64,000 nucleotides of DNA from Pempheris klunzingeri (Eukaryota; Chordata; Actinopteri; Acropomatiformes; Pempheridae). The translations under genes were made by a program, and so were the position numbers. Positions 24,900 to 56,244 of this stretch are shown piece after piece (position 1 is the stretch's first letter; every line of letters begins with the position of its first letter). The notes beneath the pieces are model-generated. The model did not search any database. It saw only the letters and a program-made list of their open reading frames with translations, and was not told where the DNA came from. Location of the stretch: the NCBI RefSeq assembly GCF_042242105.1, contig NC_092013.1:19026618-19090617 (forward strand). Reading direction: 5' to 3'.

Positions 24900-27110
24900 A
24901 AAGGTACTCACGCAAAACCAATTCCATCTATATTTTGTTGCTGTAATGAATGTTGGATCCAGCTCCTTACCTTTAGCCTGAGTCATGTGGGTCGATGTGA
25001 GAAACACAGGCCTAATTGGAGTCTTGTAATGACAGACGTGTGATGATTAAGGTGCAATTCATCACCATGTATGATGCAGCATGAGTAAAATCAGATTTCA
25101 GCGCCGCATTTTATCTCTTTGCCTTTGATAAGAATTCTATCCATCTGCTGCTAAAACCTCTTATTCTTTAGTCACTTTGAGCAGCTGTGATGTTTTTATG
25201 TTCACATATAAGTGGTGTGTCTTAAAAATAGTGAAATGTTTTAGTGTCACTGCCACAGTCGTTTCATTTCAGTGGCACTTTTTGAAGTCTCCTTATCCTT
25301 ATGTTGCTCTCCACATAATTAAGTCTTTCTATAAGTTGGACTCTGCGGGGTTAACTGCAGGTAGGAATTAGGTCCAAACCTTCAATTACTAAAACTTAAT
25401 TTGATTGTCTGTCCGAGCACGAAAAGACTCTGGCAGCAAGTATCACTGAGCAAGCAATCATTGAGATGGTCTTCAGTTGCTTAAGGAAGCAGATTCGACG
25501 TCTGCTTGTAAATATATTCACTCTGATCATTTTCCTTTTTTTTTTTTTTATAGAAAGCGATGACTCAGGATATTGTTTTGGGACATTGCCTCTGATCTCT
25601 GGCTCTAGTCTACGCATTAGACCGTTCATGTGCAGACAGTGAATCAGCTTTATGAGGCTTCTGTCATCCCATATGCCTTCATTAGTTCAAGTGGGAGTCT
25701 CCATGCATTATCACACAATAACTGTAAATGTCAAAAATACCGCAGTATGTACATAACATAACATATTGGTTCAGCACCCAAGAGCACCACTATACTGCAT
25801 TTGTTGCACTGTTATTGTACATATTGTTTCTTTTTTCCCCTCTTGAATCGATTCAGTGCTGTCCTTTGCAGTCGTGTGTTTATACATGAACAATTAATGT
25901 AGCATGACTTAGACGTTATGTCTTTTTTTTTTCTGCAATCTATCACTGATTCAAATTTATTCATCTACATACAGTTGAAACATTTTGGGAACTTGTAGTA
26001 GGTTTCGGTATACTACATAAAGATAAGGATTATTTTGGTCTCTATAACGTCTTCCAGACTCTATACCCCAAACATGTGCCATCATTAATAATCACATGGT
26101 GTACATGTATACATCATAATTTTCTTCCGCTGGTATTCCTCTACAGAAGACTGCCTTTGGTTATACCACACAGTACATCAGCATCAATTAACAGAAGCAA
26201 TGCATTTGATTTTGGTCTTGCGGGGGTCAAGTTGCACTCGTGCCGCAGGGATTACATGAGAGTGAAGCTTCTATTGCCAGTTCCAAAACACAAAATTGAC
26301 ATAATGTCTCCACTGCTTCGCCGCCTCTGTTTGTATCTATATTAATCGATCAACCTCTGCAGTTTTACAAAAGTATGTGAGCGTTCAAATTAATAAACTG
26401 AATAAAAAGGGAGTGGCTTTTAATATTAAATGCACAGACCTCATGAGTTATGGCCTACTCGGCACCAGCCAGAGGGCGCTCTGCACTCACCGGCAACTTT
26501 AGTACGTTACCTAATAAAGTGGCTGGTTGTTTTATCTTGCTCTTTTTGCTCTTTGTTGGTTCCTTTTTCTCTTAGGTATTGCATGTTTTAAACCAGGGGT
26601 AATTCTTGTTTTGCCACATACAGGAAACAGGAATCGGACTGTTAGTGATTCTAGACTGTCTCATTTGTCAATCTACCCGTCAAAGATTTGATCAGAACAT
26701 TTGACGCAAAAGCGACAACAACACTTCCATCAAAGCAGTGGCCGTTTATTGTGCAGCTACATGATAACTCAAATATTTTGTCTACCTCACATTTTGATCA
26801 GACAACTTTACTTCATGTGTAGTATGTCAATTAAAAATCACATTTCCCATGCTTACCAAAGCAATTTTCTCATATAAACTCCTGCAGAATCAGGTCCGGA
26901 CGGGAGTTTCCCTTTTACACATGGAGTACACATCCACGGAGGCTTTGCACACAACAGTATTCCTATGGTAACAAAGGCCCTTTACGTAGCTTTACTCCAA
27001 CTGATGGACCATATCACACTTTATCTTGTTTTCTTGTCACTTCTTGCCACCGTAAGCCTCCTTACAGTAAGTAAGCGTTTACCACAGATTTTATTGATGG
27101 TGATAGATTA
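24900..27110. other. Intergenic DNA between the two adenosine receptor genes
   Basis: No coding exons are recognised. Poly-T runs near 25530 and 25925 and low-complexity AT stretches are present. A fragment with 'ccagagggcgctctg' near 26468 may be a transposon relic. Divergent regulation of the two flanking receptors could lie here, but no specific element can be named. Confidence 0.45.
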
Positions 27111-27166: not shown

Positions 27167-28260
27167 TAGCGCCGATTCACAACAGCGTTATCTCAAGACG
27201 CTTTACATTAAGAGCAGGTCTAGACCAAACTCTTTAACTAGAGAGAGACCCAACGATTCAGGAATTCAAAATTAAGGATTCAAGAATTCCCACATGAGCA
27301 AACATCAGATATTATATTGAGCAGCAGAGGCAGGAAGAACTCCCCTTTAACAGGAAGAAACCTCGAACAGACCCAGGCTCAATGTGGGCGGCTTCTGTAG
27401 GGTCCGCGTTGGGTGGAGGTTGGGCAGAGAGAGAGAGAGAGAGAGAGACAACACAAACACCAACCAACGTACTAGCAGTGACTATAGCACTGTGTGGGGA
27501 GTGTGACTAAAAGATTAGCAGTTTGATATTATTGAAAAACATGATGAGTGTCAGACGATCCGCAGCAGTAATTCATGAAGCAGAGAACCACATCAGCAGG
27601 ACCAGGATCCACAGGATCCACAGGAACCTGAGAGATGAGAAAGCACAGAAAGGCTCCGGGGAAGATAGCAAGTTAGTGGCAGACATTTGGCTGACATGAG
27701 ACATAATGATGGAGAGGAAGAGGAGGATAGAGAATAGAGGAGCTCAGTGCACCATAGGAGTCCCCCGGCAGTCTGAGCCTATAGCAGCATAACCAGGGGC
27801 TGGTCTAAGGCCTGATCCAGCCCTTAAATATATGCCTTGTCAAAAAGGAAGGTTTTTAGTCTACTCTTAAATGTAGATAGGGTGTCTGCCCCCCGAACCC
27901 AGACTGGAAGGGGGTTCCACAGGAGAGGAGCCTGATAGCTGAAGGCTCTGCCTCCTGAACTACTTTTGGAGACTTTGGGAACCACCAGTAGACCTGCAGT
28001 CTGGGAGCGCAGTGCTCTAGTGGGGTAGTACGGTACTATAAGCTCTTTAAGATATGATGGAGCCTGACCCTTAAGAGCCTTGTAGGTGAGGAGAAGGATT
28101 TTAAACTCTATTCTAGATTTTACTGGAAGCCAATGAAGAGAAGCCAGTACAGGAGAAATGTGGTCTCTTCCTTTAGTTCTCGTCAGAACAGGAGCAGCAG
28201 CGTTCTGGACCAACTGGAGAGTCTTTAACGACTTATTGGGGCAGCCTGATAATAATGAGT
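27117..28260 (-). mobile_element. 5'-truncated L2-like LINE with intact 3' end
   Basis: Read on the - strand, the element starts near 28260. It runs through a 129-codon open frame (28213-27824) carrying HISPVLASLHWLPVKSRIEF, KILLLTYKALKGQAPSYL, SYQAPLLWNPLP and STFKSRLKTFLF, which is the C-terminal end of an L2-group reverse transcriptase protein. A 3' UTR follows, with (GA)n at about 27428-27448, the phrase 'gattcaggaattcaaaatta' and 'tttatatagcgccgattcac' (the + strand view). It ends in a (TGAT)n-type tail at 27117-27156. It is 5' truncated, as usual for target-primed reverse transcription. The frame is open over the retained part, which suggests moderate age. Confidence 0.8.
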
Positions 28261-28604
28261 TACAATGTCATGTCAATGTCAGCATGGAGTCTCAAGACAA
28301 CCACCAGTGTGTGGGTGGTGATGAATGATTTTGTTGTTCCCTCTTTGTTGAATATTGTTAGAGGAAAAAGAACAATCCAGTTCCTCTTTGTACTGCCACT
28401 CTAATCACTTTCACATTTTATTTATAATGTGGTAAAATTGTTGAGAAAGTCATTGTTTGCTTTGCTTGCAAATCTTTTTTTCTTTGCCTTATCAGCTCAG
28501 TATCTAGCTCCATTCATGCTGACAAAAGGAAGTGAAATTGATTTCTCTCTCGTGACTCGTCTGTGCTTGTACGCAACAATCAGATTTGTCATTTCTGTTC
28601 TTGA

Positions 28605-28633: not shown

Positions 28634-29446
28634 CCCAAAAATCGATTTGTCCGTGTTGAACGATCTTTCAGCAAATTTTCAACAAAAATATATGCATTGT
28701 ATGCAATGAGGGGTAACTGCATTACACCATTTAGACAACGTTCCTTCAGCCATTCTTTCTGATTTGTTGATAGATTACTGAGATCATTTTCAAACTGCCA
28801 TGGTAAGGTTTCCAGATATTTCAAAGTCAGTCAATTGAGGTGTGTCAACAGATGACATATATACAACCACCACCACCACAACAAAGACAAGACAGCCCAT
28901 GAGAGAAACAAAAGCATTCCAAGAGTTTAGATTATGATTCAGTGCTTGTTTGAAAAGTACATGTCGTGTAAAAAAAAAAAAGACCAGCACACATTGGAAC
29001 TAAGGAGTGCTTACCACTTCTCTACCAAGTTTACAAGTATCGTCAAATTTGTAAAGCAGTCCTGTTGGTTCTAACCCAAAATGATACCATTACATCAAAA
29101 TTACAGCCTTACCCCTCAAATGTGTGTCTCTCTGTTGCTGATATACTCTCATACTTTTTCTTATCTTATTTCTTTATCTTGCATGTAATCTGTTGCAACA
29201 GCCTACAGTTGGATTTTATTTGGCGCAGCATTAAAAGTTAAAAAGTGCCTTGTAATGACAAACATAGTGCATAGATGCAAAGCTTTGAAAAAAAAAAAAA
29301 AAAAAGCTCAGTGGCTCAAGACTTCCTCAAAGGTTTCACAAGACTGAGATGAATGATAAACGGTACAGCACAGCACGTTCAGGCTCAGACTCACACTCAG
29401 ACAGCTACACCAATAACCATCAAACATTAACCAGGCAAGACGCATC

Positions 29447-30676
29447 ATGGATGTAAAAGTAGTGATCTACACGTTGCTGGAAGTGGTCATCGCCATCAGC
29501 TGCTGTCTTGGTAACATGTTGGTTATTGTGGCATTGTGGACCAGTAAGTGCATTAAACAACCGACCTACTGCCTTATTGTCTGTCTGGCTGTGGCTGACT
29601 TTATGGTTGGCTTCATCGCCATACCGCTGGCTGTGGTGGTGGACGGACGAGTGCAGACTTCATTCCACGGCTGCCTCTTCATCAGCTGTGTGGTCATCCT
29701 GTTGACCCTCGTCTCAGTTTTGTCTCTCGTGGCTATTGCAGTGGACCGATACCTCCGGGTGTACATCCCTTTCAGGTAAAACCTTTTCTGGAAGTGTGCA
29801 GAGAAGCAGCTCAGCGTGACTTTAGATAATAAACTTTGCAATTTTTATCCATTTTATGCCAACCTCATTTCTGACCCTATTGCATGGTTTGCACAGTTAA
29901 GCGGCATTGTTTTAGTGTATCACCACAATGATTTCATAATGTTTTAAAATAATGTCTCATTGTGCAGTGCATCTTATGAATACACAGTTGTACAAGTGAT
30001 GATACCAAACATTACTGCTTTTCTGTTTAGGTACAAACGGACTGTCACACAGAGACATTCTCGCCTTGTGGTTGCAGCATGTTGGCTTGTTGCAATACTA
30101 CTGAGTTTTACTCCCATGCTCGGATGGTACAACCACGAAAATTTTTTGAAGTCACTCAACTCTCCTTTTGTCTGCCAGTTTATAGCAGTGATCCCCTTGT
30201 CATACCTGGTTTACTCCAACTTTTTTCTCTGCACCCTGACACCTCTGCTGGTGATGACTGTGTTGTACAGCTACATTTTCTGCACTATTCGATTAAACCT
30301 TCGGGAGAAACCAGGCAACGGGGCCCAAAATCAGACTCAGAACTACCTGAAGAAAGAGAGACAGCTTGCAGGATCTCTGTCTCTGGTCCTGGCTCTGTTT
30401 GTCCTGTCCTGGCTTCCTCTCCACATAATGAATTGCATTGCTTACTTTGGTAAGAGCAGTGATGTCCCAGAAGCGGCTTTCTATGCTGGCATCCTGCTCT
30501 CTCACGCTAACTCAGCGGTGAACCCAGTCGTGTATGCATTCAAAATACACAAGATCAAGACAGCATACCTGAAGGTTTGGAGACAGTATATTGCATGTGG
30601 AGAAGAAAATCAAGGATCTCAGACAAGTCAGACGACAGACAACAATCTCAGTAGCAACAACAACAGCATTGGTTGA
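29447..30676 (+). CDS. Second adenosine receptor, A3-like (class A GPCR), two coding exons
   Basis: Coding exons 29447-29775 and 30031-30676, GT-AG, joined in the Arg codon of IPFR|Y, giving 324 residues. The intron is only 255 bases. Family features: TM1 LLEVVIAI with the conserved Glu, DRYLRV at residues 100-105, EL2 VCQF, TM6 [11 protein letters not shown] with the binding Asn, and TM7 [14 protein letters not shown] with Ser-His at 7.42-7.43 and NPxxY. TM7 resembles mammalian A3 closely. Elsewhere it is divergent: the N-terminus is only a few residues with no N-glycosylation site, TM2-TM3 is changed ([20 protein letters not shown]), and the tail is Gln/Thr/Asn/Ser-rich, ending NNNSIG. It lies head to head with the - strand receptor and is probably a paralogue from local duplication. 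The start at 29447 is the first ATG after an in-frame stop. Ligand and coupling are inferred from the family. Confidence 0.85.
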
Positions 30677-33425: not shown

Positions 33426-33513
33426 TCTCAAGGAAGGTAATAGACTGTATAGTTATCACCTGAGTAGGATTCTCTCTATCCCACAAACTATACAACCTAC
33501 TACCTCACCTTGC
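33426..33513 (-). ncRNA. let-7a: let-7a microRNA precursor
   Basis: Conserved microRNA that represses growth and developmental-timing mRNAs. On the - strand the 5p mature arm lies at 33507-33486 and begins TGAGGTAGTAGGTTGTATAG. All 22 bases agree with the invariant animal let-7a. The 3p arm at 33452-33432 begins CTATACAGTCTATTACC. Pairing the arms by hand gives about 21 consecutive pairs, including a few G-U wobbles. The loop is about 31 bases. This is the classic let-7 hairpin. It lies about 330 bases from the let-7e-type hairpin on the same strand, so both should come from one primary transcript. No coding host exon is seen around them. Confidence 0.95.
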
Positions 33514-33756
33514 TAGGCTCAACTTCAGGCACCAATGAATATCCTTAAAAACAAGATTTCACTCAAAATGTACCAACTTCAGTGCATGACGTCGTCAGAA
33601 CAGACCAGTTCCACCACTGTGTTTTGTAAATATACTTGTATATAAGTCTTTGTTGTGCCTGTAATCTCCAGCCCAGAGTTGAGGGATGGGTTATCTCTTC
33701 AGTGTACTTTACTCAGTCTTCATCCACGGAGCTTTCCATGTGCAGATCAACCTGTC

Positions 33757-33845
33757 TCCTTAGGAAAGACAGTAGATTGTATAGTTATCTCAGAGGGAGG
33801 ACCCAAACCCCACAACTATTCAATCTACTACCTCAGCCTTAAGGA
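33757..33845 (-). ncRNA. let-7e: let-7e-type microRNA precursor
   Basis: On the - strand the 5p mature arm lies at 33835-33814 and begins TGAGGTAGTAGATTGAATAG. It has the let-7 seed GAGGTAG, with A at position 11 as in let-7f and A at position 17 instead of U. I recall this sequence as zebrafish let-7e. The 3p arm at 33784-33763 begins CTATACAATCTACTGTCTTT. Arms pair along their length except for one A-A mismatch at mature position 17. The flanks (CTTAAGGA and TCCTTAG) extend the stem. It is first in the order of transcription, upstream of let-7a. Fish let-7e should not be equated with mammalian let-7e by name alone. Confidence 0.93.
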
Positions 33846-35589
33846 CAGACATTTCCTCAGGTAGCAGTCTTAACTTGTCAGTCGAACTGTTGGACAAAAA
33901 TAAAGACAGAACACGTGAGTTTTTAGATCCACCTTTGGCAAACAATGCTTGAAATGTAGATAACCTTATATAAGCAGCAGCACTTTAAGCACTTTACAGA
34001 AGAACCCAGCAAAGACAACTTTTAAATTTCCTGTGACTGTTTAAACATTTTGGCATTTATTGGGTTTTTTTTTTAGCATAAACTACTGTAATTGCATCCA
34101 CTAGTAGTGAAAACAAGCACACACACACACACACCATTAATCCACAGTTATTCAAATGACACCTCCTGCCGTGGAATGAGGTGGTCTGGTAACATTTTTA
34201 TCAGGAATTACCTTCTAGGAACAATTTCCTCTCTAGACTCACCACATTGTAGTTGTGTAATCAACATTTGGTTCTCCATGCTCACCACCTGCCAGCAGGA
34301 CAATGCTACTGTGTTTATGTATGCGATATACAGCGTCTGACCTCTTACACTGGTCAGTGCGAATGCATTTGGCTGGTGTTTAACCAAGTGTTTAATGACA
34401 GCCAGGTAATGGACACACGGAACATTAGCATATGCCAGCGTAAAAGAAATGCTGTTCTCTTAATGACTTGCACATTAAAGACAAAATGCGCTTTAGTCAC
34501 CACAGTAAAACATGCAACCCTGCACGGTAACATTCACTTACTTTCAGGGAAATTGGCACATAATAAAGTGCAGCTGTGCCAAGAATTAGTACCTATTTTA
34601 CGTTAGAACTTGGCTTCCTGCTCTACTTCCCAACAGACAGAGAAAAAAGGCATGTGTTCCCCCAGTTAAGTCCTGTTCGCTGCTACAACCAGAAAGCAAT
34701 GCAAAGCAAAGGAGGAAAGATGGAAAATGGCAGTACCTCAGCCATTTTAGGGAGTTGTTTGGCACACATATCCAACATCTGTGGTGCAACCTGTTAACTC
34801 CTGCCTTCTCCTTTCAATCCTTATCCATGGTATTGACTGTTTATTTCCCCCTGAATAATAGGTGTAGGTGATGTTGAGACTGACTTAAGGAATTGCTCGT
34901 TCAGAGAGTTGATTGTTGCTGATTCACAAACGTGATTCAAGACGTCTTGCTGCAGATTTTTGCTTTGGCTTGAGATGTTTTAATAGAGGAGCTGAAGATT
35001 TGACTGCAGAAAATTGTCGTCTTTGCTCAGTGTGAAAGCCACTTCAAGTGCTTTGTAAAAGGAGTGTGTTTACTGTGCCAGCTAGAGTCTGGGACACAAG
35101 CTGGGTAGAGCTGTCTGGGCCCCGACAGAGGCATACTTTGGTTTAGCTGACTGAGCCCAGACACTGTTATGGTAGACGATGGTCAGGCCATGCAAAGCTT
35201 AGGACGCTTTGCATAAATTAGCATGTGAACCATGGTCGCTGAAAAGCGGCTGGGCAGTTCATTAACATTCTGAATTCCTCTTTGGCCTAATTAATGCCGA
35301 CAGTGATTGAAATGTTTTGGCAGGCTGTGCGGCTGCGGTGCCAGGGCATGCTCATCGGGCCAGAATGAAAAGGCACAAGGGCACCAGAGAGTGGGAGGCC
35401 TTAATTGAGATGTTGAATTAATTAGACGGTAAATGGTATCAAACTCTTCTAACTGGCTATCCAATGCAGAGGGGAAGCAGTGAAAGCAGGAGAGGTTTCA
35501 ACTTTTTATGCAAGAAAAGTTGTGTGGACTACAAACAAGATTTGTTGTGGTGATGGGGCCGTCACTGTGCAGTGCTCTGGTGAAAATGA

Positions 35590-35616
35590 ACCCTAACCCC
35601 CAACCCTAACCCTAAC
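35590..35616. repeat. Short interstitial telomere-like repeat
   Basis: The sequence reads ACCCTAACCCCCAACCCTAA followed by CCCTAAC: about four units of the vertebrate telomere repeat CCCTAA with one irregular unit. Confidence 0.75.
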
Positions 35617-38600
35617 GTACTGGTATGATTGACACCTGCATATCCATCTAGAGTAGATGAATTTTAAACAACTAAAAGCTTCCACCACAGCATGGATAGA
35701 GGCAATACAACTTAAAACATCAACAGCTATTTCATTTCCTGTAACTTATTGTAAAAGCCAGATAAATCTAAAATAAAACTCTAAAGAAGAAAAGAGTCAA
35801 CGACGTGCATCTTTTCTTCCCTTTCTATTCAGTCAACACACCATCACATTGCATCCTCTACTCAAGCAACTCTGTTGCTCAGAATAATCACTCTGATTGT
35901 TAGTAATAATGAAGTGTTCACTGTGTGTCTTTCAATTATCAGCACTCGGTCTAATTCAAACATCCGCTCTTCTACCTCAGTTGATTTGAAGATGGCTAAA
36001 CTGCTTCCATAACTTTACACAGAAGTTGTAATTCACAGGCGGAATAGATCTCTCAACCACAGGCCAGTGAGGCATGCAAACAGCTGCACTTTGACTTTTT
36101 CTAGTCACTCTTACCTTGATTGCTTCCAAATATCCTGTTCGTGATTGTGCATCAACTTTTTTTTTAACGAAAGCTCTGTTAGAGGTAAATACTAATTAGC
36201 ACCTCCATTGCGAGTCCATATGGATGGGTAGGTTTGCAGCCAAGAACTAACGCAAATGTTTTCTTTTCTTTTCTTTTTCTACCCCCGGAAGTGATGGTCT
36301 GACTTTCACAGTCTATCCCCAGCTGCTGCTGATAGGAAAATGGCTGCTCTGTTGCAGAGTGTAACGAAGGAATGGTGTTATAAATCCATGACCTTCATCT
36401 AAGACTCAGAACAATCAACATGCCAATCAACGTATGGCTGACACGGCCATTCTCTGTTGCTTCAGAAAGAGATGCCAAGAGCAGTTCGTCTTACAGTGGT
36501 AAACGTTCGACTTGTCAAAGATGTCCATGTTGTCAAATACCCAGGTACCGAAGAAACTGAGAATTTACTAGACAAAGGCACAAAAAAATACCCTTTACAA
36601 GTTGGCGTTGGTCCATGATGATCAGCGCAATACGGGGGATGACTGTGAGGGAAAAGACTGATGTTGGTTTTCTTATGCGGCTCTCTTCAATATTTGGTGC
36701 CAAGAAATGGGCATTGTCTGCATGCCAAGCGGAATCTCAATGAGACAAAAAGGGGGTGATGTCGTGGATGCAGCATGGCAGAGCCCACCACGGAGGGGGG
36801 AGGAGAGTATTGGCAGCCAAGCAATGAGAGGATGCCATGTCAGAAAGGGGGTATGATACCAAACAATAAGGTATGGTGGCATATCTTGCTGCCAGATGTT
36901 CAGTGCAGTGTCCGTGCTACGTGAGCTAGGTGGTCACACATCTAGAGAAAGGTCCATTGTTCCATAAGCAGACTTTGTCCATATGTCAGTCAAGTGGTTA
37001 AGTTTTGTATGAATTTCATCCCCTGTGATGCATCCTGTTTAATAAACTCAGGTCAGCAGGAGTTTTTGTCCGTCCGTGCGGCTGACTCAGTCTGCCGTGC
37101 CTCTTCACTTGCGGTAACTGTCTTGACGTCTTTATTTTCCACTTGATTGTTATTTCAACGGAGCACCAAATAACTGAGCTATCCTTCATGTTTCCTCACA
37201 AAAAGCACTTGCAAATTTAATCCAGAAGAGTAATTCTGTCCTGTCTACTTATACATATATGACTGAGATTGAGTGCATTAAAGTTTCAGCATGTGCTCTA
37301 ATTTCTAATGTGTGGCGCCAAGAAACTTGAGGATTGAGGATTTTTTTTTTTTTTATGCATGAAGTCATTTCTTCAGTTTTAAGTTCTTTATTTTTGTCGT
37401 GTTTCTGTTTCCTCTTTTTTCTGTTGCTGTGGCATTTCTTTCCAAAAATACATTTTCCTTTGAAGTATAAGATGAGCTCAAACATTAAACACTAAAACCT
37501 CCTCAAAATCAAAGATTAAATTTGAATAAAGAATTATTTTTTATTTCACATCATCTTGCGAGTCCTTATAGTCATATCATGTCCCCTTGTGTGGTTCCAG
37601 ACCATTAAAGCTATGTGGCTACACAGTTCAATACCGGGTGTTAATCAGAGAGGAAATGGCCCCCTACAGTATGTCAGGGTGCCATTAGATGAACTGGCTT
37701 TGGTTTTAGGGTGTCAGGTCAAAAAAGAGAAGGCCTTATAAATGGCATGAGAAGATACATTAAAATACACATTTTACTATGTTCTCTGCTGTGGGTGTTT
37801 ATGATCGGTAGTTGTGTTGTGTATTTTACAGTTTGCTTCTTAATACATGCAGTATCATGATATTCAAAATTCTCCTAATATAGAATTCAATTCTATAATT
37901 ATGCAAATAACTGCTATTTTTTTTTACAGCATAATGACGGTTTTAAACATGTTTATTTTACATGATATTTTCATTATCCTGGGAGATGAGCTGTAATGGC
38001 AGATTCTGGACTAAGTAATAATTTACACAGCTACTTAAGCTAATGATGATGACTTTGAAAATATTTTCATATGTATTCCATATGTGGAGTGTTTTTAAGT
38101 GCTAGATTGCAGGCTTTGTTTATTGCACGTTGATTTATTGGAGTGATGAGGCTACATACTACAAGACTTGTTGTTTGTGGTGAATATTTGATTACAGGCT
38201 GTGGAAGTTTCCTATCTTTGGCCTTGTAGGTCATATCCATATTCTTTTGTATTTACCACAAGAGAAGTACGACACATCTGGATGTGGATCTTCCCAATGC
38301 GCACAATGACGTTCTCAAGACGCCAGGGTAAAAAAATGTCTTTTTGAGCACTTTTTGTGGTTCGTTTTAGTCAAAGTTAGCAGCTTGATGTCAATGCAAT
38401 GAACGCCTTTAAGTTTAGACGATCACAGGAGGGTGTTTGAAAGTTTGTACTGAGAACTATGGTCATACGTGGCTCCGTCCCATCACAGGAAACCTGCCAA
38501 TCTAATGTTCCACACAGGTTCATACAAATGCCAGGATGCTGTTGGAACATCTGGACGTTTCAGATGTTATTCTCAAAGTGGGGCTCAAAACTAGAACAGT

Positions 38601-40608
38601 TCTAAATTGCTGTTAATGTAAAACAAATATTGTCAAAAGATCAAATCGGATCAAATGCTGTTTATAGCCCGTGAATCAGCTTTGCTAGCAAGCAGGAAGG
38701 GTTGAATGTGTGTATGCAGTGTGACCTGATAAAAGCAACATCCACAACAAAAAGAGACTTTGATCCTGGTAACCACAGAGTCACTCTAACCATGGGGAGG
38801 AGAGAAACGCAAATAGCGGAGGATATGGCTTTCCAAACAACATGTCATCAAGCAGCACAGCAAGTTCATCTGAGGAGAACTGTGGGGGAGGAGGAAATAA
38901 GTTCATTTTCTCTCTGTCTGCCCATCCTCCATGCGCCCTCCCCTTTTTTTTTTTTGTCATTCACCCTATCTGTACAGTACAGTATGCCATAATCTGTCGT
39001 TATCACACAATCAAACACAAGCCCAAAAGCTGACTCGACTATATGCAAACAAAACCACACACAACTGCACGCAAAGTAGCATGTGCCAAAATGTTTACAC
39101 AGTAAGTTCGCAATGAGTCTGGTTCATATAAGAGAGTAGGCTGTGAAGTATCGAAAATGTTTTTGCAAATGTAACAAAATGGAATATTAATGTTTTTTTT
39201 ATATAGTTTTCACGCTTCTTGTGGTTAAAAGAAACTCAAACAAACTGAAAAGACTTGATCTGAAACCGAGGCCGTGCAATCTTACAATACAAGCCCTTTC
39301 ATGTATAGAACAATGCTTGCAACAGAGGGATCTGGTTCATACTGGTTTGTGAACAAGTCTATCAAACACTTCAGAAAACGATGCAAGCTGCCTGTATGAT
39401 GTGCAAACTGCACATTACGCTGTGGTGTACTCTTTTTCATTTTGAGGTGAATTACATGGCGAACAGTAGCCACAGTACAGCTGAAGAATTTTTATGTTGT
39501 TTCTGGTGCCGTTTTCTCACACCTACATAGCAATCCTGCAACACAGAAACCAAATGTTTAATAAAAAAAAAAAAGTGCTAAAAGCCTATTACCTCTGAGA
39601 ATTTCCTGTTTGAAACATAGAGGTAATAATCACTTTTAATTGGGTGTAGTTTGTTTGTTCTAGCCACTGGGGTTGATGTGTGTTCAGGCTTCGACTTACT
39701 GTAAATCATACTTAAATGTTGCTTTTTACTACAGTCCTGTACTTTAAGAGGCGGTAACACAACCACTATGATGTATTTGTACTCGGGCATGTTTTATCCA
39801 ACAGTGCTATGCAAACAGGCTGCTCATTACAGTTACTACATACAAATGCTTTGATCGTGATTTTTTAAAAATGTGTTTAACTGAAGAAACAACATTATTC
39901 AAACCGAAATCTCAGTGCGACTCAGTCGAACAGAAACGGTGGAGATTATTTAGGCATTGTGTTCGGTGCAAGCAAAGGAGACACGTGTACAGTGTGGAGG
40001 GTGACAGTAAAAGAAAGAACAAAACGAATAAAGGGAGACTTGAGTGCAAAGAGGAATATCAAGGCCCAAACAGAAGCAGAATCAAAAAATGAGAAATACC
40101 TGGAGGTGAGTGAGCTAGAGTTCACCCGCAGAGAATTAGGCGATGGTGGAGGAAAAAAAAAAGAGAGGAAAAAAAAAAAAGGTGGGTTTGAAATGAGACA
40201 AGAATGCATTTCCACATCCCTCTCTTTCGCCTGCAAGACGAGGGAAAGGCTGAGTAGTGTACCAGCAAGCAACCCCACTTGAACAGGGGCTGGGGCTTGA
40301 GAGCAGTTTCTGGGCCATGCCCTCCTCTCTCCCTGCCCACTTTTGCCCCGCTGCCAAGAGGGAGAGACAGCAAGGAGAAAGGGAGGAAGGAAAAGAAATC
40401 ATGAAGTCACAAAACAGTGCTTACATGCGCCTACAAAAGATATGAAATCCACCTGGAATATGCATAAAAGCAGACTGGGGCTTTGCTTTGCGGTGAAGTC
40501 ACAGAGTTCACTCAGTTAACTCGCCGCACAAAGGGGAGCAGTCACATGAACTGTAGATTATGTGTCATCAAATAGACATCTCACTTGACTGTAGGATTAG
40601 GGGCTGAG

Positions 40609-40660: not shown

Positions 40661-43600
40661 AATAAGCTCGGGTAACGGAATCAGAAGTGAGTACTTACAT
40701 GCTGTCTTGTCACAAAGCCAAAAGGTTTGACAGATTTATCTACAGTTGGCCAAACATTTCAGTGCCAGATATTCCTGAAGCATTTCAGAGCAAATGAGTT
40801 AAAGGCTTCTCTCAGAGCCATGCAGTAAAGTCTTTTGTCAGCAGTTGGCATCATTCCCAGGTAGTACATGCCTCATACTGTAGTTCCCATTTTCGGTAGT
40901 CACTCTTTAGTTGTTCTGCACCTGCCTGTGTTTTTGTTCGGATGAGCTGCAAAGTCTGTAGAAAAGAATGGCAACCTCTGAGTTTCTGATTTAATTCGAT
41001 TGTTCTCATGAATGAAAGGCAGTGTTTACTGTCAATACAGCAAACCAAACAAGTGGTCTGGGATGTTTATCGCAATACATCCTCAAGTAACAAAATGAGG
41101 GCAAGGGAAGGGTCAATCTCTGGGAACAAGCAAATCCAAAGATAACGTAATTGCCACGGATTATCACAGAGAAATCAAAAACATTAATCCCAATGTGCGA
41201 CTCCCGAGTAAGGCACAACGCTTTAATTTTCAAACATTGTCCACGCCAGAGTGCCGCAGACACTCACCAGTATCTTTCCTCAGGCAATATCCAAGACAGC
41301 TTCCTGTGTGACGTCACATCACTGCCATTTTTCAAGAAATAATTCCCATACCTATACTTAAAATCCTTTCCCCTTCCTCATGCAGTCTTCTTTCCAGTAC
41401 AATTCTGTACATGTTCTTGAAGATTTTGTAGTTCAAATGAGCAAAAAAAGAAAAGAAAAAAAAAGCAAGCATGAATCACTGCGTCCGCATCTCAGGCAGG
41501 TCGGAGAAGAGGATATCAGAGCAGAGGAGAGGAGCTGCAAACTCTCCTTTGCCAACCTCAAGTCTGTGTCTCTCTCTTCCTGCTCGCAAACACTGAGCTT
41601 GTAAAAGTTTCAGCTGCAAGAGCTTGGGCCAGCCTCCACTGGCACCGATTCAAGAGATCACTGCCTGTTTCAGAAAAACGGAGGGGACAAGTCTGAGAGG
41701 GGAGTGCTGGCTCTTTGCAGTCTCTCTCCCGCCACCCTCTGTGTCTCTCTCTGGGACTCAGGGCAGTGACCGCTCTCAAGATTTTTACTCTCTGGTCTCA
41801 GGGTAATGCCAGCCTGGGGCAGCTCAGTCGTTACGGCATCTGTTAGAGATCCATGGCAGTCTGGATTGCTCCAATGAGGCTGGTCTGAATCACAGACACC
41901 CAGAGAGTAGGAAATGCAAGCTTCAGCACTATTTCCTGGATACTTTGTCCTCCATTTCAGATGTGTGTCAAGCTCTCACGAGGCTCAGCGCTGCTTGTGT
42001 TACAGTTCACACAAGGTTCTGGCTGCTTTGCTTTTATTTCTGCTCCGAGTGGCTCAGGGATTCTCAGCTAACCCTCCGTGTTGCTTCCTTCTTGACACTT
42101 TATAGTTGTCCAAATGTGCCTTTTTTTTTCTTTTGCCACAGTTTTAAAGGCAGTTTTTGAATATAATGCACACACTCAAACAGCAAATGGTTCCAAAAAT
42201 ACAAAGTAATTTATCTTTTCCTAGTGTTATTCCATGAGTAAGCTCTCCCTCTTATGCTGTGCCTGCTTTGTCGTATCTTTGTAATGTGGAGGACACAGTC
42301 CTTTGAGCACTGTGTAACAGGGCGGGAAAGAGATTTGTGCTTCAAGTTGTTTTTACCCCACTGTGCCCGAAAGTAATTATGGTCCAAACTGATAATATGT
42401 TAAAAGATTATTTACGAATTCTGAAATTAACGTGACACCATCTTTCTTTTCTGTCCCCTGGTAGACTAAAAGCTGTGCAAGGTTGTAAATTACTGCTGGA
42501 ATCCTTCACATAGCTATCTACACAACGGGGAGGGGTGTAAAGGTCACACAACCTACTACTGTAAACATTATGAGAAACAACTACTTCTTCTCTGAGTATA
42601 CATATAAAACCACTGTTGTCTTTGGCAGGTAAGGAGCATACTGTACATACAGAAGGCTGCCAAATACTTAATATTATGTAGAAACATGCTCTTACAGCTG
42701 TTTGATTCAACAGACGGTGCATCAATTAGTACGAAACTCAAAAATGGTCCATACGTGACAAAACCCCTCAGATTATCAGTGTGCTCTTATGTAGCTCATT
42801 GGTCACATATTAAGAATTGCTTAAGTTAGTAACATTAGCTTGGCCGACGTGGACAAAGTGCCTCTAATGAAAACGTAGCCATGTCTGACAATGTATAGCT
42901 GAGCCTCACACGCTCACCCTCAGGATAAGATTTAGCCCTTTTTTTCCTCTGAACCAGTGTGAAGGATCTAAGAATAGTAAACTTGTCGTTTATCAAGACG
43001 TGACCTTGTTGACTCAACAGTGTGAGACTGCGAGTTACATTTTGTCAGACTATTTTGGCTCCTGAATAGCATCTTTCCATTTATAATGAATGATCGAGAC
43101 CTCCTGCCATTGTCTTCTTTTGTACCCTTCCACCTTCCTTGAAACAATCCTTCCTTTGGGGATAGATTCATTTACCCCAGATTTTCCTGTTTCATCTACA
43201 TTGTTTGTCCTTCCTGAGATATGGGCCCGCTCTGAGTTGATGATTCACCCGGCTTTACAGTGCCAGCGGGTTCACGTCCTCAACGACGTGCTGTTTCACC
43301 ACTGAGCCCATGGGTGAACTAAAATATCATCATCGTACCCCCTCCCCAAACACAGGTCACTGCCACTGGAAGCTTACCTTTATGTATTTAACATAATTCT
43401 TCCTGGCTTAGTGTTTGCACAACTGCTGTGAATGGTCCCCGTATCACCATAACTTTGATTGATATGTTTTCATTTCATTCAGGCTTGTTGTTACAGTTGT
43501 TGGTATAGTAAGAGCTGGTTTTACAGCCTCTCTGGTATACTACTGCTGCTTCTCATTGCTTCAACAATGTTTACCATATTGGTCGCAGTAATAAAACACA

Positions 43601-48000: not shown

Positions 48001-51000
48001 CTCAGTTCAATTTAATCTAATTTACTTGCTGACTTGCTTTCTTGCATGTAAAGTGTGTTTGTGATTAACTGCATGATGTATTTATGACGTGTTTCTCTGT
48101 GCGTGGCAGAAGGGGAGAAGAAAGTTGCATGTTACAAAACCTTTGTGTGTGTTACAAAACTGTACAATAAAAATAGTAATTGAGTATTCAGTTCTAGAAA
48201 ATTCGGGTGTGTGTATAGTATGATTGGTATTACCTCGTGGCCCTGTGGCTTCATTCACTTCCTGCTCTTAAGCTGTAAATCCAAGCTAATATCAGCAAAT
48301 TAACATACAGCTTTGTCAGAGGCTAAACATATTTATCATTACCCTTTACTATTACAGTATGACTGGCTTACTGCACTGATGTGACGATATTCATTATGAA
48401 ATTTAATGTGAGCCACTGAACTTCCAATGAATAAGTCCTATCTTCTTCTGTTTCTATTCTACCCCTTGCTTCACTGACTTGACTTTATAATGGTAAGTTA
48501 TTATTAGTATGTCTCTCACTTTTACCGTGTCAAGTGTTTGTCATCTTTTCTCTTCTTGCCTGCCCTTTATACAATCTAACCTGTTTTATATCTTCGAAGG
48601 AAATCCATAGAAGCCAAAGAAGAAGAAAGAGGAGGTAAATGGCACAACAGAAGCCAAGCTGAATGGGAAAGAGGCCAAGCCCAAAAAAACAAAGATCAAG
48701 AAGAATGAAGATGCATCTGAAGAGGACACGCTCGCCATCCAAAGTGAGTTTAAGAGACTATGATGTTTGCAGCATTTCCTACAGATGACAAATTCAGGCT
48801 TGCATGTTCTCCTATCTCTACTGTGATCTAACCACTCTGAATCACTGCTGCTTCCTTATCGACATTCTAGATGGAAAGAAGGTGAAGAAAAAGAAACCAG
48901 AAAAAGATAAAGACGAAACAGAAAAGGAAAAAGAAAAAGAGAAAGAGCCAAAAAAGAAAGCCAAAAGTGCTCCAAAAAAGAAGAAAGGTACGTCGTTAGT
49001 GGTATGTTAAAGCTCGGCAGTGTGAAAACCTTTCATTTGAAGGCTATTTTAGAAATCAACCTGGAAAATAATAAACAATAGTCTAATGAATATGTTTTTA
49101 ATCTCTGCAGGTTCAGGCACAGATGACGATGACGATGATGACAATGATGAAGACACCCCCAAAAAGAAGACCAAGAAGAAGACAACAAAGGACCCCTCTC
49201 CAGCTCCAAGTTCTGCCAAAGAAAAGAAATCTAAGTCTAAAGGTATGGCACCAAGCAGGAAAACGGTTTTCTAAAGGTGTTAACAGCGTGACCTAAACTA
49301 CAGTTATAAGAGCAGACTAATGTTGTTAAGAGGATTACATGATTTTATTGTGTAATCATGAGTAAATGGAAACACTGACTAGGTAGCAGAGGCAACAAAA
49401 CACAGCAGCCAGTAAGTAGCTTGTCCTTAAGTAATCAACTGTCTAAAATGTTATTAAAGCAATCACAACAGTCAAACCCTGACAATTTTCTCTTTTTCCC
49501 TCACTGCACTTTATTTTGAAATGTTGTTTCCTAACAGGCTATGGTGTTGATTTTGAAACAGGATGGAAAGTTTTATTTCATAGCATGGTTGTTAGGTAGG
49601 TCCCAGTAGAATATTTTGGCTTTTTTGGACACTTTTTATTGCTCCTTTTTTTAATTAGCCACATTAGCTAATGACATTTTAATGTTGGCCCACCACTTTT
49701 AGTCTGGCTATTAGAGTGTCATGAAATGTCGTACACACTTTCATGCCACTGACTCTGGCGATTCCCAAACCTTTCCTCCAGTGTAACACCATCCTGAGGT
49801 CTATACTTGTGGTTTTGAGTGACACGTCAGACCGATCGCCATGAAATTTGGTGCAGTCCTCTCACAGTGAACTTTGGTGATCCTCTGACTTTTCATGTAG
49901 CTCCATCATCAGGTCAGAATATTAATTTGTCTGACTCTTTGTTTTGTGACCAAATACCTGCAAAACTAATGACATCTCCATCAGCCTCATCTTTACTTGT
50001 ATAGAATTGGCAATTTATAAAAAAAGGAAGCCAAAATATCCTAAATATGCGTGTTGCCATACTGCGCTGGCAGAAACGGGGTTTCACCCATAAACTATGG
50101 ATGTATTACCAGGCTGTGCTCAGCCTTGCTTCCAGTATTTCCTGGTGACCACTCATAGTATTGCAACATGCATAATTTTCTCCGTAGACCATAATTGTGT
50201 AAAAGAGACGTCTGTAAAACTGATGACAGGACACTTCCACCTGTAATCATGGCCAATCACTACTCTTTGCATTGTATATCTTTAAGTTATGGAAGTTTAA
50301 ACTTGTCCGAAGCCCAGAAAGTCCATCTTTGTCTGAATGATGTCACCGCTGTGGTACGAGCCATTCACCAGCCTGGCTGGGCCAGAGGCATGATGGGATG
50401 AATATACTACTGTATTTGATCTGTTGGCCACAGACACCCCAGAAGCTAGATACACATGGCAGGCTATAAATTATAAGACTAAAGAAAGACAACATCCATT
50501 TGTCACGAATCCATCTCTTACATCCATGCCAGCCTCAATCATGGGTAACAGTTAGCTGTCAATCATCACATCACACCCTCTTTTTTATAGCATTAAATAA
50601 CCAATTAAAGACAAACTCATCAGGAATTCAAGTTATACTTGAGCAGACATCAGCATGATGAAAGCTACCTAAAATGACAGAAAGTTAGTTTGGCTCATGT
50701 CCCCTGCTAACGTGGAGGGGGCAGGGTTTATGTCTGCAGCCAGTCTGGTGTATTGGCTACAGTCTGGCTGCAAGCTGGATATTTTTACTTCACTTTCAGG
50801 CAGCTGTCATGTCATCCATATTCAAAACAGTTGACGTATATCCTCACAGTGCTGCTGCTGTGGCTGTAGACTAGTAGAAATTTGCACTAACGTCACAACT
50901 TATTCATTTGGAATACACAACATGCTTTAGACAAACCTGACAAACCCGTTTATTTAGTGTGAGGAGGAACTGCATTTGAAATGTGTAGCTCACTATTCCT

Positions 51001-54000
51001 TTGGATCAAACTAAAATCAGTGTCAGCTCAGAGATATAACTTGAGCCATTTATCATTTCAATATTTAACTACAGTGTGACTACAGAGTGTTTCTAATGCT
51101 CCTTTTTATTAATTAGGTTGAATAATCTCCAGAGCTTTTGCCTCTGAGCTTAACTTAACCTTCCTCCACCTCAATGAGCTGTCAGTCATTGTGGGAATAC
51201 CTGCTCTGACATGTGTTTGTGGCTCCCTGCTCCTCCTGTAAAGCAAAGGAAAGCCAGGTGCTGCGTTTATGGTAACCATGAAAATGGATTTAATTATATC
51301 AGCAGCAAACTTTATGGTAGCTATGATAGTATGTTTCACAGCCACTGCTGGCCTTCTGTCTTGCACAATTTAAGTACAATAACAGTGTTTTCGTGTTTGT
51401 GTAGTCATTTTATTTTATTGTAATGTAGAATGGTACCGTTTTTACATTAAATTCTCTTTTTAAATAGATGCCTTTTTTCTACATATCTCTATACGTTTGT
51501 AAAAGTTCAAAGCTCAAACATTACAGTTTGATTTCTCTGCAGTTATTTATCCCTTGCTGTTTTCCATATATACATATTCATAACGTCACAGTCATAAATA
51601 ACGTCTGTTAAGTCTGTTAAATCTTTAGTCACACCAGTTAACATTTAAGTAACCAGTTAACTAAACAGTCAAAGCCATTATTACCTGTGACTAGACATGA
51701 TTAGTGCAATGCTTAAGTGCTTTTATGCTTTCAGTTCACTTACTGTTCGTTAATGCCAAAACTACACAGCGAGCACAATCAATTCTGAGCTGTGGTTAAT
51801 CAGCAGGTCGAGATATAACAGCATTTTGGGAAATATTCAGCGTTGTAGAACAAGTTTTAAGAGTGAGTGTTTACAGTGTTCTGAGTGTTATTGAGGTTTT
51901 AAGGTCAGCAAAACCTGGACCTCTAGATTTGAGCAAAGAATTTGGCATCCTTCGCCTCGATATCTTCAAAGGTAGTTTTTACAGAATGTATCTCTTGCAT
52001 GTCAGCTCGGACTGAGAGCAGAGCAAATGCCTTCCAGTGATGTCAGTCCACTTCCCAATGTGCTGCATCAGCTTTTTCCTTAGTCTAAACCACTTTGACT
52101 GTAAAAGATACAACCCAGACGTAAAGCTAGCAGCCAGATACGGGCGGTTCCTGGTGAAACCTGAAGCCCTCTCACTCTCTCAAGTGCTCAGAATTTGACA
52201 AAACAGCTGGAAGAAACAGTGAGAGCAAATTTCAAACTGAGCGCACACAAAATCAGGATTGCACGCTCAAAATCTGTTTCCAGTCTAAAATCCTTGCTTG
52301 CTGATTGAATACAGCTCGGATTTGTTTCGCACTCACTCCAAATCCACTGTGTAATACATAAAGGAATGAAATTTGCATTATTTGCCTGTCAAAAAAGATT
52401 AAATTCCTCAGTGTGTGCTCATATGATTCCTTAGGTTTCTATCACATTCGAGGACAGGTCAACATTTTTTAAATTTGTACGTGTTTCTCATTTCTCAGAG
52501 GACAAAGATTCTGATGGAAAAGAAAAGAAGTCAAAGTCAAAGGAGAAGGACAAGGACAAGGACAAGAAGAAAGAGCCAGCGTCAATGTTCCAGATAAATG
52601 GAGATAAAGACTCCAAAAGCAAGAAGAAAGGTGAGTACATTTTGACTTTATTTTTAGACTAAAAACTGTTATTGCTTTATAGGAATTCTTCAAATTTATG
52701 AAATTCAGTCAAACATCTTTACACCTGTTCTCCAAGCAGCTGCAAAATCCGAGAGTGATGACAGCGAAGAGGAGACAAAGTCAACCAAATCAAAGAAGAA
52801 GTCCACTGCCGGCTCAGCATCCATGTTCCAGACATCAGGAGACAAGGAGAAGGACAAAGAGAAAGAGAAAGACAAAGACAAAGACAAAGACAAAGACAAG
52901 AAGACAAAGAAGAAAGGCAGGTTTTACCAGTAACTTTATCCACATTTTGAGTCACTGATGAGTATCTAACAAATTTTGTTGTAAATTTCAGCAAAGGCAG
53001 AAGAAAGTGATGATTCTGACTCAGAAAAAGAAGAAAAATCAAAGAAGAAAAAGGGCAAAGGGAAGAAGAAAAAGGTACGGAAAATCTCACCCATTCACCC
53101 ATTACTGAAAAAGCCAACGTGCGATTTCAGTATGAGAGATTCACCACATTCGTGGCTTTAATCCAGATGAACTTATTTATGCTTCTCCACCAGGAGAGAG
53201 CTCCATCACCTGAGATTGAGTTTGACAACTTGGAGAAGTTTGTGATGGAGCCGGCTCCGCAGGGCGTGACCGTCAAATGTAGAGTGACTCGAGACCAGAG
53301 AGGGATGGATAAGAGCCTCTACCCTCTGTATTACCTTCACCTGGACAACGAAAAAAAGGTCAGAGATTCATCATTACTGCAGTTTGATAGTTTCTAGTTT
53401 TAGTTTTTAGCAGATGTATTTATCCATATGTTTTCTAGTCAGATCAAAACTTTTTTATGTATTTGTGTACATCAGATTTCTCTCTGTCCCTTTAAATGTA
53501 ACATGTCTTTTTTCTTTCTTTGCAGACTTTCCTGTTGGCAGGGAGGAAACGAAAGAAAAGCACAACCTCAAATTACCTCATCTCCATAGATGCTACAGAT
53601 TTATCGAGAGGTGGAGAGAACTTTGTCGGAAAGTTGAGGTACGCTGCACTTCAAGTGTTGCCAAGACTACTGCCAAGTATTCTCCTGCTGTGAATCTGTA
53701 ATCCTTTCATATATTGTGTAGGTCCAATTTGATGGGGACTAAGTTCACCGTGTTTGACAACGCTCTCAATCCCGACCGAGCTCTTCCTGACATGTCTAAT
53801 GCGCGGCAGGAGTTAGCTGGCATCATCTACGTGAGACAATTCATGATAGCTTATCTACGTTGCATGTCATGAATACTTTAAAAAAAATTTATTACAACTG
53901 CAAATTTTTGAAAATCCTGATTATTTCTTATTCTTATTTCTGGCATCAGGAAACAAATGTCTTAGGGATGAAAGGGCCCAGACGGATGACGATTGTCATT

Positions 54001-56244
54001 CCAGGAATGAACAAGGACAACGACCGAGTACCTCTCCGACCAAGAAATGTAAGCTAAATAGTTTATTTAACTTTATTTTCATTGTTTTGAGTAAAACATA
54101 AAGACTGCAAAAATAAATGGAATAAAAAGGAATGAAATACTGAGCCACCAGATCAGCAGAGCACTACATACATTCATAAACAATGAGGGTTTTACATGGA
54201 AAACAACTGTATGTGTTAACAAATACACAAATAATACCCCAAAAAGTAAGTCTCAGATATACTGTTAATCAATAATTCATATTTCAACATATATATATCA
54301 ATAATCGATTTAATTATAAAGTTGCCTAAGAGAAATAAACTAGGATAAAAAGGAAACGATATAAAAGGGAGGCTGGTGTGACGTTATGGCCACTTCAAAT
54401 CTCTTGTAGGCTCTTATGGTTCCAACAGCATTTAAAAAAGAGAAGTGGCCTTGTAGATCATCACCTTTCCATTATTCATCATTATTCATTGTAGATGACT
54501 TTGATCAAACTCTTTTCAGCTATGAAAGTGTAATTTATGAAAGTGTGTAAATGGGATTATGAAGTTGGTACATCCAGCTGTGCATACAGTATTTTGACTC
54601 GTGCATTAAACCATCAGATCTGCCGTGAACAATGTCAACCAATGCAGTTTGTTGTCTGTTTATAATGAGAGCAACACAAGCAGCATGTGAACTCGTATTA
54701 TTCTATGATGGTGTTTTCCTCACTTTTGTTTTCCTGACTTGTGCTTTGCAGGAATGTGACGGTTTGTTGATAAGGCACCAGAATAGAAGGATGGAAAATC
54801 TGATCGAGCTTCACAACAAGACGCCTGTGTGGAACGAAGAAAGTGCGTCTCATGTCCTCAACTTTAACGGCAGGGTCACCCAGGCCTCCATCAAGAACTT
54901 CCAGATCGTCCATAACAAAGACTGTGAGTGCTGTCTGCAGTTCTTACCTGCTGATCTATGACGACGGGAACTCCTTGTTCCTCCTCCTCCTTGTTTACGA
55001 CTAATGTACATTTAAAGTTACGAAGACACACAAAGCACTTGAGAAATAAATAATAATAATAACTAACTAATAACAAGAAATAAAACCTTGTAACTGATTT
55101 GTTGAATGTACTTTCTCTTCTTGTCTGGCAGTGATGAGATTTAAATCTATACACTGTAAGCAACCATTTTCATAACATTTGATGTCGTATGGAGATAGAC
55201 ATGGGTCAAACATTTACAGTAAAGAGCATTTGTTAAGGCACTCATTTATAAACGCAAATGTACCATTGTTTAATGCTTAGCTGTAGGTTTAGACTCAAAC
55301 TACACTAAAAATAATTTCTGTTACATTGTGGGTGTTATGCCAATAGATTTTATTTAGAAATACCAATCCTTCAGTATTTACTTTATTAGCTGATCAAAAA
55401 ACAAGAAAGAAAAACTACAGCAGAATTTTGAAAACCACCAACTTGGGTCAATTCAGGAGAAATTTGCATCCAATGAATAAGTGACAGACTGAAGGCTGCC
55501 AGAAGAAGTTGTTGTTGTTGTTGTTGTTGTTGCTGTTGCAAAAAGAACGGAGCTTCTACGAGAGTTTACAGTAACATTACAGCACGAGGGTTTGCAACAG
55601 ATGTTATGCTGGTAAATACCATCGTCATTTTTAACCACACTAGCGGTACGGCTCCGTGGTTGGCACTTGTGGTCCACCTCTTTAATCTGAACTGAAATAG
55701 CTCAACAGCTTTTGGAGGAATCGCCATGAAATTTTGTTCAGGCGTTCATGTTCCCCAGAGGACGAATCATGCTTCCCACTTCCATATTCTTGTCCCCTTC
55801 GGGATGAATTGTTATCACTTGTGACTTTTCATTTTGCTCCCTCATCAGGTCAGTTTGTACTATGTGCTAATTAGCAAATGCTATCGTGCCAACGTGCTTA
55901 GTTACAATAGTCATCTTCAAACATTAAAGCTGCTAAACACTGCTTTGAGTATTTAGCTCAAAGCATCTCTGAACACTGAAGTGTGACTGCAGGCACTTTA
56001 TCTTGTTTCATTTCTATTAGCTTTAGGATTGAATGAATGAATATTCTTGATTTAAATACCTATCTGCCCACCTGTCTATTCTATTTTAACGGTTCTTTTC
56101 CTTTTTTCAGTGGACTACATTGTGATGCAGTTTGGACGAATAGCCGATGACATTTTCACACTGGACTTCAACTACCCGCTGTGTGCCGTGCAGGCCTTTG
56201 CCATCGCCCTCTCCAGCTTTGATGGCAAGATCGCGTGTGAATAA
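45017..56244 (+). CDS. tulp1: Tubby-like protein 1, 15 coding exons
   Basis: Phosphoinositide-binding protein of photoreceptors, needed for ciliary (outer segment) trafficking; human TULP1 loss causes retinal degeneration. Exons: 45017-45063, 45803-45851, 46237-46287, 48611-48743, 48871-48987, 49111-49242, 52499-52630, 52740-52916, 52992-53074, 53194-53358, 53526-53638, 53722-53830, 53950-54048, 54752-54923 and 56111-56244. Phases agree throughout, giving 570 residues (human about 540). The N-terminus [12 protein letters not shown] mirrors human TULP1. Residues 45-307 are Lys/Glu/Asp-rich and disordered. Residues 308-570 are a full tubby domain: [10 protein letters not shown], the basic AGRKRKKS loop (phosphoinositide site in the family), [47 protein letters not shown] and the end [15 protein letters not shown]. 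All introns look GT-AG except the one after 52916, which needs a GC donor. The a/b paralogue is not determined. Confidence 0.94.
45415..45600. repeat. Dispersed teleost repeat ('gattaatcg' family) in tulp1 intron 1
   Basis: It contains 'attgattaactgattaataa', 'tttctttgtcttctatgata' and 'caatatgaatatgccaactt', in the same order as other copies of this family in the window. Non-coding. Confidence 0.45.
49720..50005. repeat. Dispersed teleost repeat, 'gccatgaaatttggt' family, copy 2 (tulp1 intron)
   Basis: It contains 'tggttttgagtgacacgtca', 'gatcgccatgaaatttggtg', 'gatcctctgacttttcatgt', 'ctccatcatcaggtcagaat' and 'aaatacctgcaaaactaatg'. It aligns block by block with copies at 21120-21530 and 55690-55990. 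It is the best preserved of the three. Confidence 0.6.
52860..52905 (+). repeat. Coding hexanucleotide repeat in tulp1
   Basis: Near-perfect repeats of GACAAA/GAGAAA encode alternating Asp/Glu-Lys pairs ([18 protein letters not shown]). A hexamer repeat keeps the frame when it expands or contracts, so length variation between alleles is expected. Confidence 0.85.
55512..55542. repeat. (TTG)n microsatellite in the last tulp1 intron
   Basis: About nine GTT units with one interruption (GCT). The - strand reads CAA repeats. It is not part of an exon in the tulp1 model. Confidence 0.85.
55690..55990. repeat. Dispersed teleost repeat, 'gccatgaaatttggt' family, copy 3 (last tulp1 intron)
   Basis: It contains 'aatcgccatgaaattttgtt', 'gcgttcatgttccccagagg', 'tgtgacttttcattttgctc', 'ccctcatcaggtcagtttgt' and 'gtgctaattagcaaatgcta'. 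Same block order as the copies at 21120 and 49720. Confidence 0.6.

Follow-up and report, generated by a model that had tools for sequence, protein, structure and literature searches.

The closest described systems are let-7e/let-7a pairs of teleosts, which have been tabulated for zebrafish, medaka and fugu (PMC5372658, Table 1). Its entries dre-let-7e/let-7a-5, ola-let-7e/let-7a-2 and fru-let-7e/let-7a-3 have the same members, in the same written order, as the pair described here, with no miR-100 or miR-125 listed; each of these species has one such pair there, whereas the genome of Pempheris klunzingeri has two. The 22-nt mature let-7e is also in print for flounder (2 clones, annotated 'oan, tni, fru, dre, gga'), for sturgeon (18,018 reads) and for zebra finch, whose tgu-let-7e (UGAGGUAGUAGAUUGAAUAGUU) is identical to the let-7e reported below; the same 22-nt RNA appears for pig as let-7k with 6 reads, in a row that names chicken. 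Since both the pairs and the mature let-7e are already in print, the present locus belongs to a kind of cluster already described, and its orthology to the zebrafish, medaka and fugu pairs rests on name and mature sequence. Chicken let-7j/let-7k is presumably the orthologous pair in birds. Therian mammals are not known to carry the let-7e form, and the pig let-7k reads argue against a clean loss in that group. No let-7e/let-7a pair stands among the 12 human let-7 loci of a review table (PMC4742387). Human let-7a-3/let-7b resembles the present pair in being a two-member let-7 cluster without other partners.

The window studied here, a 64,000-nt stretch of P. klunzingeri contig NC_092013.1 (C2 below), contains only two Rfam matches at the gathering threshold, both to let-7 (RF00027, gathering score 53.5 bits) and both on the − strand: a let-7e hairpin at 33760..33841, transcribed first (68.1 bits, E 3.8e-12), and a let-7a hairpin at 33428..33513, transcribed second (73.9 bits, E 1.1e-13). 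Folded with short flanks, the two segments reach −41.6 kcal/mol (let-7e, z −4.15) and −44.7 kcal/mol (let-7a, z −6.28), values equalled by 0 of 200 dinucleotide shuffles in either case, and the Rfam and fold scores together rule out chance hairpins as the origin. Mature let-7e-5p (TGAGGTAGTAGATTGAATAGTT) lies at 33814..33835 and mature let-7a-5p (TGAGGTAGTAGGTTGTATAGTT) at 33486..33507, the latter having 7 exact copies in the genome including its own locus; in each, positions 2-8 form the let-7 seed, GAGGUAG. The 3p arms, predicted from sequence and fold with inferred ends, are CTATACAATCTACTGTCTTTCC for let-7e (33763..33784, −) and CTATACAGTCTATTACCTTCC for let-7a (33432..33452, −). The mature 5′ ends at 33835 and 33507 are 328 nt apart on the same strand, well inside the 10-kb rule for a cluster given in PMC5372658. 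An earlier note, made by eye from the letters, had thus correctly placed two let-7 hairpins on the − strand, in this order, with pairing stems and with these two 5′ ends. The let-7 and mir-3596 models also match the + strand, where they pick up the complements of these two hairpins; those matches do not enter the count. A mir-33 match at 31574 (E 0.15, under its gathering score) was dropped.

A let-7 member is also held by the miR-100/let-7/miR-125 clusters, which are recognised by a miR-99/100 and a miR-125 within about 10 kb; neither was found at that distance from the let-7e/let-7a pair. Searches with miR-125b and miR-100 allowing up to 3 mismatches gave no match in the whole window, and the lin-4 and mir-10 families are absent from the 10 window matches listed up to E 5. 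On C2 as a whole lies none of the 8 genome-wide mir-10-family (miR-99/100/10) matches above cut-off and none of the 3 genome-wide miR-125b matches (up to 2 mismatches), and miR-125a-like forms, sought within the window, were not found there. A genome-wide search with the lin-4 family overlooked even the miR-125b genes and is a false negative, so the absence of miR-125 rests on the other searches. Two other let-7 genes, one at C4:28.5 Mb and one at C14:10.1 Mb, serve as a positive control, since miR-100 and miR-125b were recovered within 7 kb of each. One may ask whether the pair belongs to a cluster of this latter kind with partners that are more distant or diverged, given that let-7 is often accompanied and that such clusters exist in the same genome on C4 and C14. 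However, C2 has no mir-10-family match above cut-off and no miR-125b match (up to 2 mismatches), the window has not even weak matches, and the let-7e/let-7a hairpins fall outside the clade of miR-100-linked let-7 genes (98/96); this explanation is largely refuted and is given next to no weight. The pair is thus better read as an unaccompanied two-member let-7 cluster, as the earlier note had proposed from its failure to see miR-99/100 or miR-125 nearby. Its further likening of the pair to the let-7a/let-7f/let-7d type fits only loosely, because let-7e/let-7a is a listed teleost kind of its own in PMC5372658; in the hairpin tree, the window let-7a and its copy on C11 group with let-7f, with weak support (88/78).

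Across the genome, at least 21 let-7 genes lie above cut-off, a lower bound from a family search that returned 22 rows, of which one, below cut-off, was not counted. Seven same-strand pairs account for 14 of the 21: two each of a/b, g/h and e/a, and one of a/f. No mir-10-family match occurs within 600 kb of any of these 14 genes, and the remaining 7 are single in these data, 2 of them adjoining miR-100 and miR-125b. In this genome, let-7 genes thus occur most often in pairs without other partners. Two let-7 genes, at C8:13239297-13239376 and C16:9191445-9191524, have the mature sequence TGAGGTAGTTGGTTGTATGGTT, and their hairpins group with the miR-100-linked clade (98/96); the genome-wide search gave no mir-10-family match on either contig. 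A separate observation concerns C14:2654116-2663063, where a hairpin like miR-99 lies 9 kb from a match to miR-125b and no let-7 was found between the two; the best let-7c match there has 7 mismatches and does not surpass shuffles. A genome-wide pattern search broad enough to include canonical mature let-7c gave 18 matches, none of them with that sequence, and let-7c thus seems to have been lost from this miR-99/miR-125b cluster.

The pair had been described as lying between an adenosine receptor gene and tulp1, with no coding host; protein-level searches recover both neighbours, the second as a Tub-domain gene. To the left, a two-exon, rhodopsin-family, adenosine-receptor-like gene at 29417..30676 (+) matches Pfam 7tm_1 in two frames, and the best solved matches of its second exon are adenosine receptors A1 and A3; it ends 2.75 kb from the pair, which is transcribed leftward, toward its tail, so that the two stand tail-to-tail. 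Profile (Pfam) and protein matches reveal a second adenosine-receptor-like gene at 21921-23876 (−), absent from the earlier note. To the right, a Tub-domain (tulp1-like) gene directed away from the pair is recognised at 53245..56223 (+) by Pfam Tub (69.5 bits for the frame at 54629, and 23.3 bits, under the cut-off of 27, for the frame at 53020) and by exon matches at 53472-53648, 54764-54943 and 56113-56223. These recognised exons are about 19 kb from the pair, and first exons of the gene may lie nearer. No open frame of 90 or more codons overlaps the pair, which at the level of open frames bears out the claim that no coding gene hosts it; a non-coding host transcript is likely. Elsewhere in the window, a lysine/serine-rich frame of 233 codons at 7745-8446 (+) has no Pfam match and is perhaps an exon of a further gene. 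A second frame, of 147 codons at 27824-28267 (−), also has no Pfam match and, judged by eye, looks like the terminal part of a LINE-type protein.

The genome has the pair twice: a further copy, at C11:13222266-13222634 (+), encodes both mature RNAs unchanged, let-7e again ahead of let-7a. Between C2 and C11, identity amounts to 90% over 98 bp for the let-7e hairpins and to 87% over 82 bp for the let-7a hairpins, and in a tree of 87 columns the two let-7e hairpins are sisters (99/97), as are the two let-7a hairpins (99/94). The C11 pair also has an adenosine-receptor-like gene tail-to-tail with it, about 0.6 kb away. In a tree of 10 receptor genes, the ten best places of a genome search, the receptors next to the two let-7 pairs are sisters (98/98), and a second receptor pair joins the same two contigs (C2:8.1 and C11:10.9 Mb, 91/94). 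Identity between the two neighbouring receptors is about 47% for the second exon and, for the first, 56%. The second exon of the window receptor, taken alone, is closest to C11:10.88 Mb (49%), whereas its first exon has the C11 neighbour as best match (56%) among the loci at which a first exon was compared; the sister grouping therefore rests on the tree and the first exon. This conservation of a neighbouring receptor at both copies is a comparison within one genome. Among the literature matches listed (CC-licensed papers), nothing on point was found on duplicated let-7e in teleosts, and no paper was found for the 3p arm of the C11 let-7a.

The common order, receptor neighbour and upstream blocks (below) of the two pairs are consistent with both copies having been retained since the teleost genome duplication. 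A different origin, by a recent segmental duplication or by one of the older vertebrate duplications, could be argued from the hairpin identity of 87-90% and from the Tub-domain gene, which gave no match on C11 in the genome search and is not common to the two copies. However, the flanks of the C2 and C11 pairs hardly align and their receptors have diverged to the extent given above, which speaks against a recent event, and a 1R/2R origin is made unlikely by the same two forms in the same order in both pairs, unlike the other five pairs. With the second C2/C11 receptor pair also counting against it, such an origin is regarded as improbable, though not negligible. A still less credible account would have one or both loci dead, with the hairpin retained by chance; both arms are kept between C2 and C11 though the flanks are not, and the fold z-scores are strong, so that this account deserves almost no credence. 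With high confidence, the locus is a teleost let-7e/let-7a microRNA cluster, one that would be transcribed by RNA polymerase II and cut by Drosha and Dicer, and its second copy on C11 fits the teleost duplication.

Conserved sequence upstream of the pair was sought by comparing the − strand of window 30.7-53 kb with 80 kb of C11. The comparison gave 17 rows, 3 of them within let-7; the 14 others comprise 5 collinear matches, 2 same-strand matches on the far side and 7 on the opposite strand. The five collinear blocks (all −) lie upstream of let-7e in conserved order, one of them being weak. Three are apparently non-coding: 36681..36767 (76% over 88 bp, E 1.9e-9), which is 2.83 kb from let-7e on C2 and 2.87 kb on C11; 40332..40390 (75% over 61 bp, E 1e-4), at 6.48 and 6.45 kb, respectively; and 41597..41668 (73% over 73 bp, E 1e-4), at 7.75 and 8.15 kb. 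The weak block at 38839..38887 (E 0.039, possibly due to chance) is 4.99 kb from let-7e on C2 and 4.43 kb on C11, and the short block at 50778..50818 (85% over 41 bp, E 1e-4) is 16.9 kb and 21.5 kb away. Genome searches with 36681-36767 and 41597-41668 returned only the query itself, the former overlooking its C11 copy, and the two blocks are therefore no common repeats. One of the two far-side matches is of low complexity. The other, a stretch at 49807-49989, is 68% identical over 194 bp to 55464-55645 of the fetched C11 region (E 3e-17) without being collinear; weaker matches in inverted orientation occur another 5 kb along, and the stretch is perhaps a dispersed repeat. Because this strong match is not collinear, and because the opposite-strand matches reach E 2.8e-4 (3 rows with best E 0.002 in a reversed control), the blocks at E 1e-4 rest mainly on order and spacing. 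The upstream blocks could represent enhancers, pieces of a promoter or exons within the primary transcript.

Closer to the pair, a polypyrimidine-AG stretch resembling a 3′ splice site occurs at 33887..33916 (−), with a score on a home-made acceptor scale in the top 1.0% of the AGs of the strand, and a putative exon from 33886 would begin 51 nt before mature let-7e. On C11, the corresponding stretch precedes let-7e by 68 nt and ranks within the top 0.07%. The same scale was applied to 12 other let-7 loci, and 7 of them have, no more than 400 nt away, an acceptor-like site that scores in the top 3%, those at C2:28.3 Mb and C11:22.8 Mb being as strong as the one of the C11 let-7e/let-7a pair; the sites before let-7e are thus weak evidence for a splice signal. 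Such sites may reflect spliced host transcripts of let-7 genes generally, or chance. No CpG-rich stretch that would mark a promoter was found in window 29-56 kb, where the highest observed/expected ratio in 500-base bins is 0.67 (53.5-54 kb, beside a Tub exon). On C11, CpG-rich stretches occur at 18001-19000 (1.08 and 0.78 in its bins) and 26001-27000 of the fetched region, and of the two copies of the block at 50778-50818 it is the C11 one alone that has a CpG-rich setting. A short telomere-like run of ccctaa units, at 35590-35616, also lies in the non-coding zone upstream of the pair.

With respect to processing, the Drosha site is asymmetric in the minimum-energy folds of the window let-7e and let-7a, the 5′ side having one more unpaired base (+1). 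By the bulge classes of PMC4742387 this would assign both to the group II form of pre-let-7, in which a bulge at that site leads to a one-nucleotide overhang. Over the 21 hairpins, the bulge is +1 in 15, +2 in 1 (let-7e of C11) and symmetric in 5, and both miR-100-linked copies are among the symmetric five. The miR-100/let-7/miR-125 clusters on C4 and C14 thus differ from the window pair both in the bulge and in having partners. The following course of events is proposed for the locus. RNA polymerase II would start upstream, above 34 kb in window coordinates, and transcribe leftward, first let-7e and then let-7a, approaching the adenosine-receptor gene from its tail; the transcript would probably be non-coding and would perhaps be spliced. 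Drosha and Dicer would cut both hairpins, whose +1 bulge, as folded here, would make them precursors of the class reported to need mono-uridylation before dicing. The mature let-7e and let-7a, with their common let-7 seed, would repress let-7 targets, as expected from the family. A second copy of the unit is retained on C11, in keeping with the teleost duplication.

LIN28 binds the loops of let-7 precursors and restrains let-7 output, and GGAG, the motif of its zinc finger, is present in the loop of 15 of the 21 let-7 hairpins. Six have no such motif, namely the four hairpins of the e/a pairs and, from each a/b pair, the let-7a member; neither GGAG nor GAAG occurs in the loop of either window hairpin or of either C11 hairpin. 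At the GGAG position, the let-7a loops of the e/a pairs have AGGTG, which fits the looser zinc-finger motif NGNNG, and a match to GNGAY, the motif of the cold-shock domain, is kept in all four loops. Human let-7a-3, reported as the sole human let-7 without the GRAG loop motif, is also reported to bypass LIN28 (PMC5368188, PMC5311490), and the let-7e/let-7a pair differs from that case in missing GGAG from both members. Replacing GGAG in pre-let-7a-1 lowered Lin28a binding more than tenfold (PMC5311490). The same paper also reports that pre-miR-9, which has no GGAG, is still bound by Lin28a, and in PMC4982076 a mir-363 loop without GGAG was 58% bound at high dose. The latter paper further reports that levels of let-7a, let-7c and let-7e were unaltered in gastrula-stage Xenopus lin28 morphants, which makes a knock-down of LIN28 by itself less informative. 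Nothing on point about the loop motifs of fish let-7e was found among the literature matches listed (CC-licensed papers).

Judged by the loop motifs, the let-7e/let-7a pair may be poorly repressed by LIN28. The kept GNGAY, the fit of AGGTG to NGNNG and the binding of GGAG-less loops elsewhere make escape likelier for let-7e than for let-7a, and a partial repression of the two is possible. The fuller proposal, a two-copy cluster that escapes LIN28 because both members are without the zinc-finger motif, supplies let-7 to cells in which the other let-7 genes are silenced by LIN28 and has its own conserved upstream control, is put forward only tentatively, as an idea that may well prove wrong.

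As a bare let-7 pair, the locus is an ordinary teleost microRNA cluster. Two features are worth notice, namely the survival of a duplicate whose upstream zone is conserved in part, and the lack of GGAG in both loops. The two copies with their conserved upstream blocks offer a comparison of how let-7 control regions change after genome duplication. If both precursors evade LIN28, fish, and perhaps birds, would gain a source of let-7 outside the LIN28 switch.
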